Source of the DNA: Aphanothece sacrum FPU1 | GTDB taxonomy: Bacteria > Cyanobacteriota > Cyanobacteriia > Cyanobacteriales > Microcystaceae | Length of the DNA: 64,000 bases | Assembly: GCF_003864295.1 (NCBI RefSeq) | Contig: NZ_BDQK01000003.1 | Coordinates: 124,001-188,000 of the forward strand | Direction of reading: 5' to 3' | Shown: in pieces, positions 600 through 63,065 of the stretch | How positions within the stretch are numbered: the first letter of the stretch is position 1 | Layout: every line of letters begins with the position of its first letter | Notes under the pieces: generated by a model | What the model was told of the DNA's origin: nothing | Databases searched by the model: none | What the model saw: only the letters and a program-made list of their open reading frames with translations | Made by a program: the position numbers and the translations under genes

Positions 600-634
600 T
601 TTGTGGATTGTTATTTTGAACAAAGTATAAATTT

Positions 635-660
635 TAGGGGTCAACGGCCGTTGACCCCTA
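635..660. repeat. Perfect palindrome, TAGGGGTCAACGG and its complement (copy 1)
   Basis: Perfect 26-bp palindrome with no loop, between the TAAGCT repeat and the 3' end of the porin gene. The same palindrome, extended to 28 bp by a G/C pair, recurs at 42873-42900, 49253-49280 and 63038-63065, and a half copy sits at 24047-24061. All copies are intergenic. Here it could end porin transcription on the minus strand. Confidence 0.8.
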
Positions 661-692
661 CAGAAAATATCAAATTGAGAGATGATTCAGAC

Positions 693-3046: not shown

Positions 3047-3712
3047 TTAACCCCGATGTCCAGTAACAATATAAGACACTCGCTGAGCAATATTAGTTGC
3101 GTGATCAGCCATTCTTTCTAAGTGACGAATCACAAGAGCAAGTAAGATGAAAGGTTCAATGACTCCTGGAATATTGCGCTGATAGGCTAATATTTGATAA
3201 AGATGCTCGTAAGCATCATCTACTGTATCATCCATCTGTTTAACCCGTTTTCCCCCATCACCATCTAACTCTGCTAAGGCCACCAGACTAGCTGCTAACA
3301 TCATTTGAGCATAATTAGACATAATAGCCATCTGCCCTAAACAATCATGAGGGGGATAAGTTACCAGTTTAACAGCAATTTCGCTCAAGTCTTGGGCATA
3401 ATCTCCAATACGCTCTAAATCTCGCACCAACTGCATAAAAGCACTCAAAAGACGCAGATCTTGAGCTACAGGAGATTGTAAGGTCATCAAAGTTGAGCAA
3501 TCTAGTTCTATTTGACGATAATAACGGTCAATTTGTCGATCAAGTTCACTAATTTTAACAACTACATCAAGATTCTGTTCAAACAAAGCTTGATGACTCA
3601 GACGAAAAGACTCTTCAACTAAGGTTCCCATCCGTAGAACTTCTTGTTCTAATCGCTTGAGACAGCGAGCAAAATAGGTATTATCGGGATATTTCCTGTT
3701 TGATATGTTCAC
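3047..3712 (-). CDS. phoU: PhoU-type phosphate signalling regulator (SphU in cyanobacteria)
   Basis: Negative modulator linking the Pst phosphate transporter to the SphS sensor kinase. The 221 residues are all-helical, with two PhoU repeats (about 15-105 and 120-215), normal length, and the usual acidic/Arg helix segments (RDLERIGDYAQDL and RHLERMADHATNI), which are metal-binding in the family. The frame starts with GTG at 3712; no ATG occurs before residue 29, which would delete part of the first helix. It is downstream of sphR and sphS on the same strand, with one small gene between, so co-function in phosphate sensing is well supported by context. Confidence 0.93.
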   Translation of the reverse strand: MNISNRKYPDNTYFARCLKRLEQEVLRMGTLVEESFRLSHQALFEQNLDVVVKISELDRQIDRYYRQIELDCSTLMTLQSPVAQDLRLLSAFMQLVRDLERIGDYAQDLSEIAVKLVTYPPHDCLGQMAIMSNYAQMMLAASLVALAELDGDGGKRVKQMDDTVDDAYEHLYQILAYQRNIPGVIEPFILLALVIRHLERMADHATNIAQRVSYIVTGHRG

Positions 3713-15007: not shown

Positions 15008-15317
15008 GGTTCTACAGAACTTACTATGCTAAACTAATAATTAATAAAAGGCTAAAGCCTTATTCTATAAAAACGATCGTCCGACGAGCGCGGACTAAAT
15101 TATAGAACCCATTTGGGATCTCTATCGAAAGATTGAACTTATGATGGTTTTAGCAAATTGGATGATTTCTTCTTAATCCTGACTGTGTAGAGATTCTGGG
15201 AAAGATCCCAAATGGGTTCTATAGGTTGCGTAGGCAACCTTTGTTTGTATAGCTTAACTCTAAGCGAGTTAAAGTCTATTATTTGTAATAATTTAGCATA
15301 ACTTGTCCGGTAGAACC
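15008..15317. mobile_element. Multi-hairpin element, copy A (189 bp plus a nested MITE)
   Basis: The ends are imperfect inverted repeats beginning GGTTCTAC and finishing GTAGAACC (TTAGCATAACTTGTCCGG before it). Removing the nested MITE and its extra TA leaves 189 bp. Internal short stems include AGGCTAAAGCCT, GGTTGCGTAGGCAACC and TTAACTCTAAGCGAGTTAA. No ORF. Relatives: 26386-26530, 33731-33881, 39041-39118 (same internal hairpins where present), and 30578-30765 and 39985-40173 (same ends, different hairpins). Confidence 0.75.
15103..15221. mobile_element. 119-bp MITE (copy 2, inverted), nested in multi-hairpin element A
   Basis: Same 19-bp inverted ends as the copy at 6277-6395, flanked by TA (15101-15102 and 15222-15223). 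When reverse-complemented it differs from copy 1 at two positions. It splits the multi-hairpin element before TAGGTTGCGTAGG; the relative at 26386 keeps that junction uninterrupted. It is therefore the younger insertion. Confidence 0.85.
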
Positions 15318-24017: not shown

Positions 24018-24046
24018 AATGAAAATAAAAAATAATAAAATAGACA

Positions 24047-24085
24047 GCCGTTGACCCCTACTATGAACGAGTTAAAGTCTATTAA
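24047..24085. repeat. Half palindrome joined to a fragment of the multi-hairpin element
   Basis: GCCGTTGACCCCTAC (24047-24061) is one arm of the 28-bp palindrome. It is followed by GAACGAGTTAAAGTCTATTA (24065-24084), which matches the right portion of multi-hairpin element A near 15264. Both are fragments, so this 90-bp gap is a repeat graveyard. Confidence 0.55.
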
Positions 24086-28060: not shown

Positions 28061-28090
28061 TGTAGGGGTAATTCATGAATTACCCCTACA
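28061..28090. repeat. 30-bp perfect palindrome, TGTAGGGGTAATTCA and its complement
   Basis: Perfect inverted repeat with no loop, between the convergent gltX and GIY-YIG genes. The outer GTAGGGG/CCCCTAC arms are shared with the 28-bp palindrome family, but the core (TAATTCATGAATTA) differs. It could act as a bidirectional terminator. Confidence 0.75.
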
Positions 28091-33604: not shown

Positions 33605-33730
33605 GATTTATTTTTACTCGTCTTTAGTAAAACTATTGATGATATTGTAAAATCATAATAGAACTAAAATTATCGGTCATTAATTCTTTCCCATAATTCA
33701 GAAATAGGTCTAGTTTTACCTTGCTTAACA

Positions 33731-33881
33731 TAGACCTTAACTCTAAAGAGTTAAGCTATACAAACAAAGGTTGCCTACGCAACCTAGAATGAGCGTCCGC
33801 GCAGGCGGACTTAGTCTTTATAGGATAAGACATAAGGTCTGTCATTAATTATTAATTTAGCATAGTAAGTCCGATAGAACC
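33731..33881. repeat. Multi-hairpin element, copy C (inverted, one end lost)
   Basis: On the complement: GGTTCTATCGGACTTACTATGC, AGACCTTATGTCT, GTCCGCCTGCGCGGAC, GGTTGCGTAGGCAACC and CTTAACTCTTTAGAGTTAAG. It aligns with element A but ends after the last hairpin, so the second terminal repeat is missing. It lies between the RelE toxin and the GTPase gene and fills half of that gap. Confidence 0.7.
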
Positions 33882-33903
33882 ATATTTTCCATAATATCAA
33901 AGA

Positions 33904-40330: not shown

Positions 40331-41135
40331 TATGACCCAATTCTTGCGATCGCAGATAAGCGGCCTTAACTGCTTCAATAATAGCCGAACGAAACCGTCT
40401 TTGTTCTAATTGGGCCACACCCGCAATAGTGGTTCCCCCTGGACTGGTTACTTGATCTTTTAATTGGGCCGGATGGATATTAGTAGTTTGCATCAGTTGA
40501 GCCGTGCCTAAAACCGTCTGTAACGCCAGTTTAGCCGCAATAGTTCGGGGGAGTCCTGCTGCTACTCCTCCATCCGCCAAAGCCTCTATCATGATGGCGA
40601 CAAAAGCAGGTCCCGAACCCGATAAACCCGTCACTCCATCCATTAAAGATTCAGGTACGGTAACAACTTCCCCAACCGCCGTAAAAATAGAAGTCGCTAA
40701 ACTTAGGTGATGAGGTTCAACTGTTTGCCCAGACGAGATCGCACTCATTCCTGCCCCCACAGTCGCCGGAGTATTAGGCATAACTCGAACTACCGGATAT
40801 ACGGGAAAAGCCGCTTGTAAACGGCTTAAAGGGACTCCAGCTAAAATTGAAATAATTAGAGGATAACTAGGTTGAGACTTTATTTCTAATTGGTTGACAA
40901 CCGTATCGAATACCTGGGGTTTAATGGCTAAGAGTAACGCTTCCGTTGCCGTCAGGGTGTTTGGGTTATCTGAAGTTACCTGAACCCCATAGGTTTGTTC
41001 TAAGAACTCTCGTCTTTTCGGTTCTGGTTCACTTACTAATACCTCAGACCCTTGATAAATACCTTGTTGTACAAGACGTGATAGGATTGCTTCTGCCATC
41101 ACGCCACCACCAATGATGCCTAATCTAATGGACAC
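40323..41135 (-). CDS. proC: Pyrroline-5-carboxylate reductase
   Basis: Last step of proline synthesis, NAD(P)H-dependent. The 270 residues show the Rossmann start (RLGIIGGGVMAEAI), VVRVMPNTPATVGAGMS, GLSGSGPAFV and the C-terminal DQVTSPGGTTIAG signature. Start is GTG at 41135; no ATG occurs before the Rossmann glycines. It follows sepF, pipY and pipX on the same strand, an order conserved in cyanobacteria. The C-terminal few residues (GHKL) are partly encoded by a heptanucleotide repeat. Confidence 0.96.
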   Translation of the reverse strand: MSIRLGIIGGGVMAEAILSRLVQQGIYQGSEVLVSEPEPKRREFLEQTYGVQVTSDNPNTLTATEALLLAIKPQVFDTVVNQLEIKSQPSYPLIISILAGVPLSRLQAAFPVYPVVRVMPNTPATVGAGMSAISSGQTVEPHHLSLATSIFTAVGEVVTVPESLMDGVTGLSGSGPAFVAIMIEALADGGVAAGLPRTIAAKLALQTVLGTAQLMQTTNIHPAQLKDQVTSPGGTTIAGVAQLEQRRFRSAIIEAVKAAYLRSQELGHKL

Positions 41136-41229
41136 TAATTTCCAGGTTTAAATAGAAAAAAAGAGAAATTTGGGGATAAGCTCCCGTTAAAACGGTAAAA
41201 TCACTAAAACGGGAACTCAAACAACCGAA

Positions 41230-41826
41230 CTATTGAACTAAACGATTAACATCTGCTCCCCAACTAGAAATAGGGGAAGAAGAACGAGGCATAATGGGGT
41301 TAACATCAGGGACATCGTGCATAGTACCTGAGAGGGTACTTACTTTGACACAACTAGGGGTGAATAAGAAAATGCTCTCCCCAATGCGTTCTTGATGGCC
41401 ATCGATGGCATAGGTTCCACCAGCGACAAAATCTACCGCTCTTTGAGCTTCTTCTGGGTCCATTGAGTTAAGATTAAGCACAACAGACTTACGTTCCCGT
41501 AAAGTTTGGATAACTTCAGGCATTTCGTCAAAAGAATGGGGTTCAACCACCACAACTTCAGCAATACTATTAGTAATGCCAGGCATACCGATGACGTTAT
41601 CGAGAACGTTATTACTTCTACTAGTTCGCATATTCGATTGTGGGGTTAAATTGTTTAATCTATCTTGTTTGCGCCAGTTGCGTTGTTCATCCTCGGCTGA
41701 GGTATCTTGTACTTGATTATCGGGTTCTAAATTACCATAGATTTCTTCATAGGATTCGTTAGAATCATCTTCATCATCTATTGGTTCGTCAATGTTAGCC
41801 CAATCTTTCAGCTTTTTGAAAATCAT
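41230..41826 (-). CDS. sepF: Cell-division protein SepF (Cdv2)
   Basis: FtsZ-bundling and membrane-tethering septum protein. 198 residues: an N-terminal amphipathic membrane-binding helix ([12 protein letters not shown]), an acidic/Asn-rich linker (about 15-75), and the SepF beta-alpha core (about 95-185) with [20 protein letters not shown], then [20 protein letters not shown] and [13 protein letters not shown] at 41826. Located between pipY and proC, as in many cyanobacteria and Gram-positive bacteria where yggS, sepF and proC cluster. Confidence 0.96.
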
Positions 41827-42165
41827 ATCCGCAATCTCGTTTTTTTTTACAAGGAGTTAATCAAGCACAAGTTTGTTAAATACCTGATGGCAGTTCACAA
41901 TTGCAGTTTTAATGGGTTGAGTAAAAGAGAATTTTAGAGCCGCGATCGCTGTTTTATTTTACCGTTCTCGTCTCTTTTTTCCCTTCATCTTCCCTATTGC
42001 TTACATTAGTACTGGCATTCTTTCTAGGAAAGTTTAAGCCAGTTGTTTAGAGTTAGGATAGCTTTTTCCTCTAGTCGTTTTGACTTGAGAATATGTTCCC
42101 CAAAAAATTAAAAAGAATTTTAGATGGGTATAATAATTTTAGAGTATTAATGAGCAAAAAATTTT
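41827..42165. other. Gap between pipY and sepF
   Basis: 338 bp without an ORF, containing one HIP1 site (GCGATCGC near 41943). Its length suggests that sepF has its own promoter despite being downstream of pipY on the same strand. I see no assigned motif. Confidence 0.4.
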
Positions 42166-42819
42166 TCATCTGTCCCCAAAGATAATACGTCCTAGACGAA
42201 TCATGGTTGCCCCCTGTTGTATAGCTAATAAGTAATCAGAGGACATTCCCATTGACAACTGTTCCATCGATAAGGAGGACTGTTGTTTAAGGGTTTGAGC
42301 TAATTGTCTGGTCTGGTCAAAGGCAGCTAAAATCTCGGATTCTGATAACCCCAATGGTAAAATAGTCATTAATCCTTCTATTTTCAGATGTTTACACCTT
42401 TCTAATTCCGATAAATCGTCCAAAAGTTCCCGAATGTGCCAACCGTATTTATTGGGGTCGGGTAAAACTTTAACCTGGAGACAGAGTTTAGGGGAGTTAA
42501 CCCCCTCCTGTACTAATTGATTAAGACGTTGAGCCAGCTTTAGATTATCAACACAGTGAATCCAATCAAAGTGTTCTAGGACTTTTTTGGCTTTATTCGT
42601 TTGTAAATGTCCAATAAAATGCCAAGAGATATGTTTTAGGTCTTGTAGTTGTTCTTGTTTGGGGATTGCTTCTTGTAGACGACTTTCGGCAAAATCTCTG
42701 ACTCCTGCTTCATAAGCTTCCTTCATAGCTGATACGGAGACTTGCTTAGTTACCCCGATCAAAAGAACTGACGGGGGGATTTGTTGACGAATTTGGTCAA
42801 GGCGTTGGGCAATGGTCAT
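42166..42819 (-). CDS. pipY: PipY, YggS/PLPBP-family pyridoxal-phosphate protein
   Basis: 217 residues, a single-domain PLP-binding TIM-barrel protein that buffers vitamin B6 and amino/keto-acid pools. PLP Lys25 is in IGVTKQVS; GLMTILPLG and the phosphate-binding MGMSSDY are present. I start at ATG 42819 (MTIAQRL), the usual N-terminus, rather than the TTG at 42831. It lies downstream of pipX, with which it is normally cotranscribed; here the 114-bp spacer contains a perfect 28-bp palindrome that could attenuate or process the transcript. Confidence 0.95.
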   Translation of the reverse strand: MTIAQRLDQIRQQIPPSVLLIGVTKQVSVSAMKEAYEAGVRDFAESRLQEAIPKQEQLQDLKHISWHFIGHLQTNKAKKVLEHFDWIHCVDNLKLAQRLNQLVQEGVNSPKLCLQVKVLPDPNKYGWHIRELLDDLSELERCKHLKIEGLMTILPLGLSESEILAAFDQTRQLAQTLKQQSSLSMEQLSMGMSSDYLLAIQQGATMIRLGRIIFGDR

Positions 42820-42872
42820 ATCAAGGAGCAATTTTCGTAGTTTGGCATTAGTTATTCCTAAAACCTTGCCTT

Positions 42873-42900
42873 GTAGGGGTCAACGGCCGTTGACCCCTAC
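42873..42900. repeat. 28-bp perfect palindrome within the pipX-pipY spacer (copy 2)
   Basis: GTAGGGGTCAACGG and its complement with no loop. In RNA it would form a 10-12-bp stem between pipX and pipY. No T-run follows on the minus strand, so it is not a classical terminator. Identical copies lie at 49253-49280 and 63038-63065. Confidence 0.88.
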
Positions 42901-42933
42901 TTAATTTTGAGGACTATACTATCGCTTACGTAC

Positions 42934-43203
42934 CTATTGAAACGTCTTTTTATGGATTTCGGAGAGATCTTGATATTCTTGAGAGATTCCGATACGACGC
43001 AGGTTCCGTAAACGTTTTTCTATCAATAGCCTAGCATCAGAGCGACTAATGGGGTCAAGGGCGGTATTAGTTGAGTTTGTAGTTACCAAAAAAAATAACC
43101 GTTGGGCATATAGGGTGGTAAATAACTCTTGATTATCATCGAGGATACATACTCGATATAACAGTCCGAAAGTGGGATGGTTGACATAAATTTCGTTGCT
43201 CAT
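42934..43203 (-). CDS. pipX: PipX, NtcA coactivator and PII-binding protein
   Basis: 89 residues, the normal size. The Tudor-like N-terminus (YVNHPTFGLLYRVCILDDNQ, then ELFTTLYAQRLFFLV) and the two C-terminal helices (RSDARLLIEKRLRNLRR) match PipX. It binds 2-oxoglutarate-loaded NtcA as a coactivator, or PII when nitrogen is plentiful, and is found only in cyanobacteria. ATG at 43203. First gene of the pipX-pipY pair. A weak NtcA-like half match lies upstream but is not convincing. Confidence 0.96.
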   Translation of the reverse strand: MSNEIYVNHPTFGLLYRVCILDDNQELFTTLYAQRLFFLVTTNSTNTALDPISRSDARLLIEKRLRNLRRIGISQEYQDLSEIHKKTFQ

Positions 43204-43416
43204 TCAATTTCCTAAAAGTGCTTATCCTCTAACAAAGAAATCATTAAAACCGTTACTTATTGTATGTAATCTTAACCTTCTCTGGGCGCAACTAAGGGCC
43301 TATTTACTCCCAGAATAGGGAATCTTTAGACAAATGTCATCATTTCTCCACAAACTCACGGCAATATGAATGTGTTACAATAATGATTATCCTTAATTAT
43401 GGATAATTATCATCAA

Positions 43417-43665
43417 ATGCCCGCCAAAGATATTTATCATGATATCGTAAGAACTGCCCTAGAAAAAGACTGTTGGACAATTACTAATGATCCCCTAGTT
43501 ATTCGTTGGGGAAAAAGAGATTTATACAATGAATATTTTTATTTCTATCCTTTTGAAAGAGGAGGATTGAAACCTTTTTTTTGTCAAGTTTTATTAGAGA
43601 ATAAACGCCTTAAATTATTAGTTTTTCATGCAATTCAGGAGGTCATTTTAAAATGGATAACTTAG
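43417..43665 (+). pseudogene. xisH: XisH (fdxN-element excision controlling factor), core deleted
   Basis: The start (MPAKDIYHDIVRTALEKDCW, then TITNDPLVIRWGKRDLY) and end (LLENKRLKLLVF, then IQEVILKWIT) match XisH. The total is 82 residues against about 138 normally: the middle with the PD-(D/E)xK-like core (the usual KIAVEIKSF segment) is replaced by about 15 unrelated residues (NEYFYFYPFERGG). The frame is still open, but nuclease activity should be lost. I start at MPAK, the family's usual start, rather than ATG 43399. Confidence 0.75.
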
Positions 43666-49252: not shown

Positions 49253-49280
49253 GTAGGGGTCAACGGCCGTTGACCCCTAC
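49253..49280. repeat. 28-bp perfect palindrome (copy 3)
   Basis: GTAGGGGTCAACGG and its complement, between the convergent coiled-coil and first Uma2 genes, 7 bp from the Uma2 stop. It could be a bidirectional terminator. Confidence 0.88.
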
Positions 49281-63037: not shown

Positions 63038-63065
63038 GTAGGGGTCAACGGCCGTTGACCCCTAC
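63038..63065. repeat. 28-bp perfect palindrome (copy 4)
   Basis: GTAGGGGTCAACGG and its complement between the convergent mnmG and GH3 genes. Same sequence as at 42873 and 49253. Confidence 0.88.

Follow-up and report, generated by a model that had tools for sequence, protein, structure and literature searches.

A dispersed GTAG...CTAC palindrome, probably a double-foot REP brought by a mini-transposon, lies between pipX and pipY of Aphanothece sacrum

The small dispersed repeats (SDRs) of Nostoc, from the 2008 work of Elhai et al., are reportedly hairpins of 21-27 nt that show compensatory changes and reside in mini-transposons and heptamer arrays. Cyanobacterial repeats of the SDR type have been counted among REP-like sequences without conserved terminal motifs, while the classic GTAG REP carries an unpaired GTAG tag at one end (PMC3733652, Di Nocera). 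The double-foot REPs of TnpAREP subclass 2.4 (group 4 of Bertels) begin with GTAG and end with CTAC; they are abundant in cyanobacteria and also occur inside the transposase gene with its frame unbroken, and their canonical, long forms have three consecutive G-C pairs at the stem base (PMC6006769).

We compared with these systems a palindrome (hereafter the 28-mer) between pipX and pipY in a window of 64,000 nucleotides from Aphanothece sacrum FPU1 (contig NZ_BDQK01000003.1, positions 124,001 to 188,000). The two genes are transcribed in the order pipX, then pipY. The 28-mer consists of GTAGGGGTCAACGG followed by its reverse complement and was matched 0 times in 100 dinucleotide shuffles of the window. 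The original prediction, which had pointed to a perfect 28-bp palindrome in this spacer and to identical copies between convergent ORFs, proved correct on both counts (Table 1).

Table 1. Genes, palindrome, related repeats and mini-transposon, in window coordinates
Feature	Position	Strand	Details
pipX, 89 aa	42934..43203	minus	NF045912 137 bits; PF12058 134.5 bits
pipY / YggS family	42166..42819	minus	TIGR00044 233 bits; ATG at 42819, alternative upstream TTG at 42831
28-bp perfect palindrome	42873..42900	.	double-foot REP-type repeat; GTAG-GGG-TCAAC-GGCC-GTTGA-CCC-CTAC; pipX-pipY spacer
Degraded mini-transposon MITE-B (apparent)	42820..42924, ends approximate	minus	palindrome inside; nearly fills the pipX-pipY spacer
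Palindrome copy, exact	49253..49280	.	between convergent ORFs
Palindrome copy, exact	63038..63065	.	between convergent ORFs
Palindrome copy, 1 mismatch	634..661	.	missing from the list of the original prediction
Palindrome half copy	24045..24061 (approx.)	.	adjoins MITE-A-like arm
Same-length relative GTAGGGGTAATTCATGAATTACCCCTAC	28062..28089	.	GTAGGGGT/ACCCCTAC arms as in the 28-mer, other core

The pipX and pipY genes of S. elongatus make up an operon in which PipX raises pipY in cis (PMC5504682, PMC7344720). That the two genes are usually neighbors agrees with published work and with 27 of the 30 pipX loci that we fetched (own included): pipY was in reach of pipX in these 27 and had the same orientation in all of them. 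No pipY was seen in the other three loci, one of which is cut by a contig end. The distance from the pipX stop to the codon matching our pipY ATG was 20 nt or less in 16 of the 27 loci and larger in 11 (own included); L246, one of these 11, has a stop codon inside its pipX. All three relatives with the best PipX match (G007, G012, and G017) belonged to the short class and had almost no spacer. Direct reading gave a spacer before the pipY ATG of 5 nt for G007, of 11 nt for G012, and of 114 nt here. Two loci of the same genus, L231 (G008) and L236 (G023), have pipX-pipY spacers of 119 and 165 nt that contain a different GTAGGGG sequence (GTAGGGGCG...CGCCCTTAC stem in L231), and another repeat apparently occupies the same spacer there.

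The spacer of A. sacrum looks foreign, a degraded copy of the mini-transposon MITE-B around an intact palindrome. MITE-B is about 105 bp long with the ends ATAGCAYTAC and GTARTGCTAT, and the palindrome stands 23 bp from one end. Aligned to MITE-B in reverse, the spacer had an arm score of 55.5, while 2000 letter shuffles averaged 11.6 and peaked at 37.5, the MITE-B consensus having been written after the spacer was seen alongside other copies and being in this sense not blind. This score ranked eighth among 136 oriented copies, and all seven that ranked higher, except L272, had contributed to the consensus. A MITE-B profile with the palindrome masked found the spacer weakly, at E 2.7. Because the masked profile was weak and the consensus was not blind, the MITE-B claim rests on the arms anchored at the palindrome. 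Subtracting about 105 from 114 leaves about 9 nt, which fits an insertion into a short spacer such as those of the relatives.

Copies of the palindrome are often located in mini-transposons in this genome. A second one that can carry it is MITE-A, for which at least 41 long matches were found in the genome (40 of 253 candidates scored). Twenty-eight MITE-A copies were compared, three unrelated window matches having been dropped from 31 rows. The palindrome stood at one fixed spot in nine of them (half only in L288) and was missing in 19, a share that is no estimate of frequency as several of the loci were retrieved because they contain the palindrome. At this spot the 28-mer stands in the position of GTTAAGCTATAC, a stretch of 12 nt that shares the GT...TAC ends, and no target duplication was seen. 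Two MITE-A copies without the palindrome are located in the window at 15042-15317 (-) and 33730-33884 (+).

Genome-wide, the 28-mer family occupies 108 places at two or fewer mismatches (G000; 4.49 Mb, 20 contigs) while a reversed control gave 0, and the 28-mer is therefore not a feature specific to pipXY. It is an ordinary dispersed repeat whose location here is possibly consequential. The pattern GTAGGGG...CCCCTAC with 6-36 bases between occurred 69 times in the same genome (control 1). Five of 39 genomes (own and relatives) contained the family: G000, G007, G012, G017, with 92 places, and G029, where 33 of 50 places were two variants, GTAGGGGTTAACGG... and GTAGGGGTGAACGG..., each with its matched partner. 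Among at least 120 stretches listed, exact copies came from Crocosphaera, Planktothricoides, Oscillatoria, Roseofilum, Zarconia, Pleurocapsa, and others. Exact copies were also present on L055 and L058, contigs of the MAG ALOHA_ZT_7, named Crocinitomicaceae; these contigs may be cyanobacterial contamination.

We examined 62 copies of the own genome at five or fewer mismatches, 59 of them within 2 mismatches (59 of the 108 places). Fifty-seven of the 62 lay outside ORFs of at least 60 aa, versus 16% of 28-mers in the same loci. With neighbors defined as ORFs of at least 80 aa, 29 copies were in tandem gaps, 18 in convergent and 11 in divergent ones, 2 were at an edge and 2 in an ORF. The 45 imperfect copies from all fetched loci, most of these copies coming from loci found by exact match and recurrent variants being counted every time, carried 16 compensatory pair changes as compared to 1.7 expected, along with 52 single changes and 2 unmatched double ones. 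Most single changes hit either the loop or the outermost base, and among the matches listed only 2 of 16 copies with one mismatch were altered in the stem (positions 2-11/18-27; 11 expected). At stem positions 8-21 and 9-20 changes occurred almost exclusively as matched pairs. As read from these sequences, the feature conserved across copies is the hairpin.

Other forms of the repeat were observed as well. A 45-bp version at G000:C13:96118-96162 has GTAGGGGTCAAC arms with a longer hairpin (CACGCCGCA TCT TGCGGCGTG) between them. Half-palindromes are nested or doubled in L184 near 1298-1360 and, in L182 and L205, beside their copies; in L184, TAAAGA stands on both sides of the half copy, as if by slippage or template switching. 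Planktothricoides SR001 (L113, L134, L135, L042, L077, and L102) has mosaic arrays in which the 28-mer abuts the palindromes AGTCGGTTTTAACCGACT and GGCGGGGATTAAAATCCCCGCC where short spacers stood. The impression by eye, in Planktothricoides, that the flanks around the palindrome are complementary and that some neighboring arms had been converted was followed up in 8 groups, which showed no excess of complementarity. Palindrome pairs spaced by about 1.68 kb were considered as transposon ends and rejected: in the two pairs that were read, out of three, no transposase was evident among the ORFs. Among the fetched loci there were no clean empty sites for bare copies; 21 of 251 candidate pairs lacked the palindrome, mostly at mosaic repeats. 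We disregarded the conservation of the palindrome relative to its flanks in C. watsonii versus MO_133 (flanks 82-83%), as both loci had been found by exact match.

The GTAGGGG sequence of the family was associated with one kind of RAYT transposase gene. Of the 16 RAYT genes with the motif NH.HG or NH.HA, 15 had GTAGGGG or CCCCTAC in the gene or at most 400 bp away, compared to 0 of the 23 other RAYT genes (P 6e-10), this grouping by the HUH motif having been chosen after looking at the data; when the HUH motif and the Y motif ends were used together, the result was 11 of 11 versus 4 of 28. The sample comprised 39 distinct genes after removal of six duplicates and exclusion of the fragments L316 and L349-L351, from a larger set in which many further profile matches were left unfetched. 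A tree, drawn open, placed 15 of the 16 in one group (support 89/97); L332 is not in the tree. The exception among the 16 is L318 (G007), which has GTAGAGAC palindromes within and beside the gene instead. A double-foot palindrome, GTAGAGACGTTGC...GCAACGTCTCTAC, is found inside and beside this gene at L318:2273-2302, 2665-2692, and 3531-3558.

A sister palindrome, GTAGGGGCGAACGG..., which has the AACGGCCGTT core of the 28-mer, lies within the RAYT reading frame of three other cyanobacteria, SU2, Planktothricoides, and Pleurocapsa. The SU2 locus (L109) has the exact 28-mer about 230 bp upstream of the RAYT frame and, inside the frame, a variant with CG replacing TC. Planktothricoides (L332) and Pleurocapsa (L333, one base off) have this CG-for-TC variant inside their RAYT genes too, and in Pleurocapsa it is additionally located 34 bp upstream of the gene. 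L332 and L333 came from a protein search in genomes picked for the 28-mer, and L109, the only case observed in which the exact 28-mer is beside a RAYT of the fitting type, had itself been fetched for its 28-mer. These three loci are the most direct tie of the palindrome family to its putative RAYT type.

The genome of A. sacrum was initially thought to have no RAYT on the basis of PF01797 alone; this was dropped when NF047646 found one. The gene (G000:C4, 162 aa, with NHLHG, WQ, and YILNNP) is the one RAYT of the fitting type found there. It scored 67.8 bits with NF047646 (curated cut-off 80) and 23.5 with PF01797 (cut-off 23), and its best solved relative was TnpAREP 4er8 (E 0.0067). Its motifs are near those of subclass 2.4 (NH[IFV]H, WQ, and YIxNNP) and also of 2.7, and its identity to other RAYTs of the group is 44-78% for five of them and 31% for a sixth. 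Its flanks contain other GTAGGGG elements and lack the 28-mer, the nearest copy of which is 1.1 kb away inside a MITE-A. Similar elements of about 187 bp with the ends GTAGGGG and CCCTAC flank the gene in direct orientation (L315:2706-2892 and 3466-3653); they are possibly its true cognate repeat. No intact GTAGGGG...CCCCTAC element was found within 1.5 kb of IS200-type genes in this genome (15 loci: L143 and L166-L179). Sixteen genomes chosen for the 28-mer, several of them draft or metagenome assemblies, yielded a fitting RAYT in eight, other classes only in five (including C. watsonii WH 8501), and none in three.

Given these data, the 28-mer is in our judgment likely to be a double-foot REP of the RAYT/TnpAREP subclass 2.4 type, brought by a MITE-B insertion between pipX and pipY that was followed by decay of the carrier; our confidence is slightly lowered because the MITE-B consensus was not blind. 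Such a repeat would spread as a single-stranded DNA hairpin handled by a subclass 2.4 enzyme, would sometimes land in larger mini-transposons, and would then travel with them. A MITE-B of about 105 bp with the palindrome would have inserted when pipX and pipY were about 5-11 nt apart and would have decayed since, while the palindrome within stayed intact. A likely side effect would be that the close spacing of the two genes was lost and a stable mRNA stem was placed behind pipX. This stem could protect pipX mRNA and lower pipY output, transcription termination not being involved.

The prediction that the transcribed palindrome forms a strong stem was supported by folding: a stem of 12 bp encloses a GGCC loop (for the palindrome alone -21.2 kcal/mol in RNA form, -11.9 as DNA), and RNA folding of the spacer gave a z of -3.5. 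In E. coli, REP stems can protect upstream mRNA. On the pipXY strand the stem is followed by AAGGCAAG; as a U-run behind the stem is absent on this strand, the palindrome is not an intrinsic terminator of pipX. A terminator scan came up empty for the pipXY strand; its single terminator-like site is on the opposite strand (0.8 expected by chance), which contains no ORF of at least 60 aa in 41000-43398. Rfam gave no match in 42000-43500 up to E = 1.

It had further been proposed that the stem acts on pipXY itself. Regulation of the pipX:pipY balance by the stem is possible, and we infer that the insertion would affect pipXY more via the lost proximity than via the stem. A role as a dedicated control site was not supported: the palindrome is dispersed over the genome, it sits inside an apparent degraded mini-transposon, and pipX and pipY are nearly contiguous in G007, G012, and G017, the relatives whose PipX matches best. 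A dedicated RNA element, retained in order to adjust the PipX:PipY ratio through attenuation or RNA processing, would account for the great stability of the stem and for a palindrome that is intact though the mini-transposon around it has decayed, and it would accord with the action of PipX in cis on pipY in S. elongatus (PMC7344720). However, the same 108 places and the nearly absent spacers of the relatives, together with the lack of both a terminator on the pipXY strand and an Rfam match, make this decidedly improbable. A bidirectional terminator or stabilizer of mRNA ends, under selection at gene ends across the family, is unlikely. The median distance from the copies was 40 nt to a neighboring stop and 136 nt to a neighboring start. 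Of the 58 copies between two ORFs, 18 lie in convergent gaps, which make up 17-23% of the space. A T-run (5 or more T among the 8 nt that follow the stem) occurred at 26 of 124 ends against a background of 10%, so that some family copies may end transcripts. On the other hand, 98 of the 124 ends have no such T-run, the end on the pipXY strand being one without, and REPs generally are mostly downstream of genes (PMC3733652).

Two further readings concern the nature of the repeat, and one its way of spreading. An untagged cyanobacterial repeat of the SDR type, copied by an unknown and perhaps RNA-based route unrelated to RAYTs, would agree with the size, the cyanobacterial spread and the residence in mini-transposons and mosaics that are said to characterize SDRs, and with the eight of 16 genomes having the 28-mer in which a fitting RAYT was not found. 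Against it stand the GTAG foot of the repeat, the occurrence of its exact form beside a RAYT gene, and the sister forms inside such genes, and we find this rather unlikely. A DNA operator for a dimeric regulator would explain the perfect twofold symmetry, and there is a loose likeness to the 17-bp inverted repeat of HetR (PMC4192349). Yet variation at the center combined with covariation in the stem is what a hairpin would show, copies are found in transposons, and 14 bases separate GGGG and CCCC here where the HetR rule is GGG, 5 bases, CCC; an operator is highly improbable. As to spreading, the replacement in MITE-A without target duplication and the paired changes at 8-21 and 9-20 led us to consider hairpin-templated exchange of single-stranded DNA (snap-back or template switching), which, in place of ordinary insertion, would spread the 28-mer and keep it perfect. 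We give this a small chance; if it were true, pipXY would be a case of a pristine unit inside a decaying carrier.

If the 28-mer is a double-foot REP that arrived with MITE-B, the supposed regulatory stem is recast as an insertion event that seemingly separated genes which are near-contiguous in relatives. Given that pipX and pipY are linked by cis-acting polarity control in S. elongatus, the insertion would be a natural experiment on the PipX:PipY balance. It would also tie a common cyanobacterial family of GTAGGGG hairpins to one RAYT group and make the question of REP mobility testable in cyanobacteria.

Like the SDRs of Nostoc, the 28-mer is a hairpin with compensatory changes that is found in mini-transposons. 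Its terminal GTAG foot sets it apart from SDRs as viewed in PMC3733652. With GTAG REPs, including GTAG-15/16 of Cyanothece, it shares the GTAG end, a hairpin in the range of 20-40 bp, dispersal, and an intergenic position that is often behind genes; unlike the unpaired tag of the classic GTAG REP, its tag is paired at both ends, GTAG with CTAC (PMC3733652). It is like a REPIN in having two inverted halves, in looking mobile, and in its link to RAYTs, while a REPIN consists of two REP hairpins plus a spacer and the 28-mer is one hairpin, as if the center had been deleted (PMC3116915). We assign it to the double-foot REP type because it is bounded by GTAG and CTAC, as are the cyanobacterial REPs of subclass 2.4, and like their canonical forms it has three G-C pairs, GGG/CCC, at the stem base (PMC6006769). 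It differs from those REPs in that the RAYT of its own genome has no exact 28-mer beside it, and its core was not seen in passages of PMC6006769; outside Figure 1 of PMC3733652 and the supplements of both REP papers, no paper naming this core was found. As in subclass 2.4, copies of the core flank a RAYT gene in SU2 and Pleurocapsa and sit in frame inside the gene in these two and in Planktothricoides. The 28-mer is a real, well-explained feature and an apparently new member of an already known type of repeat.
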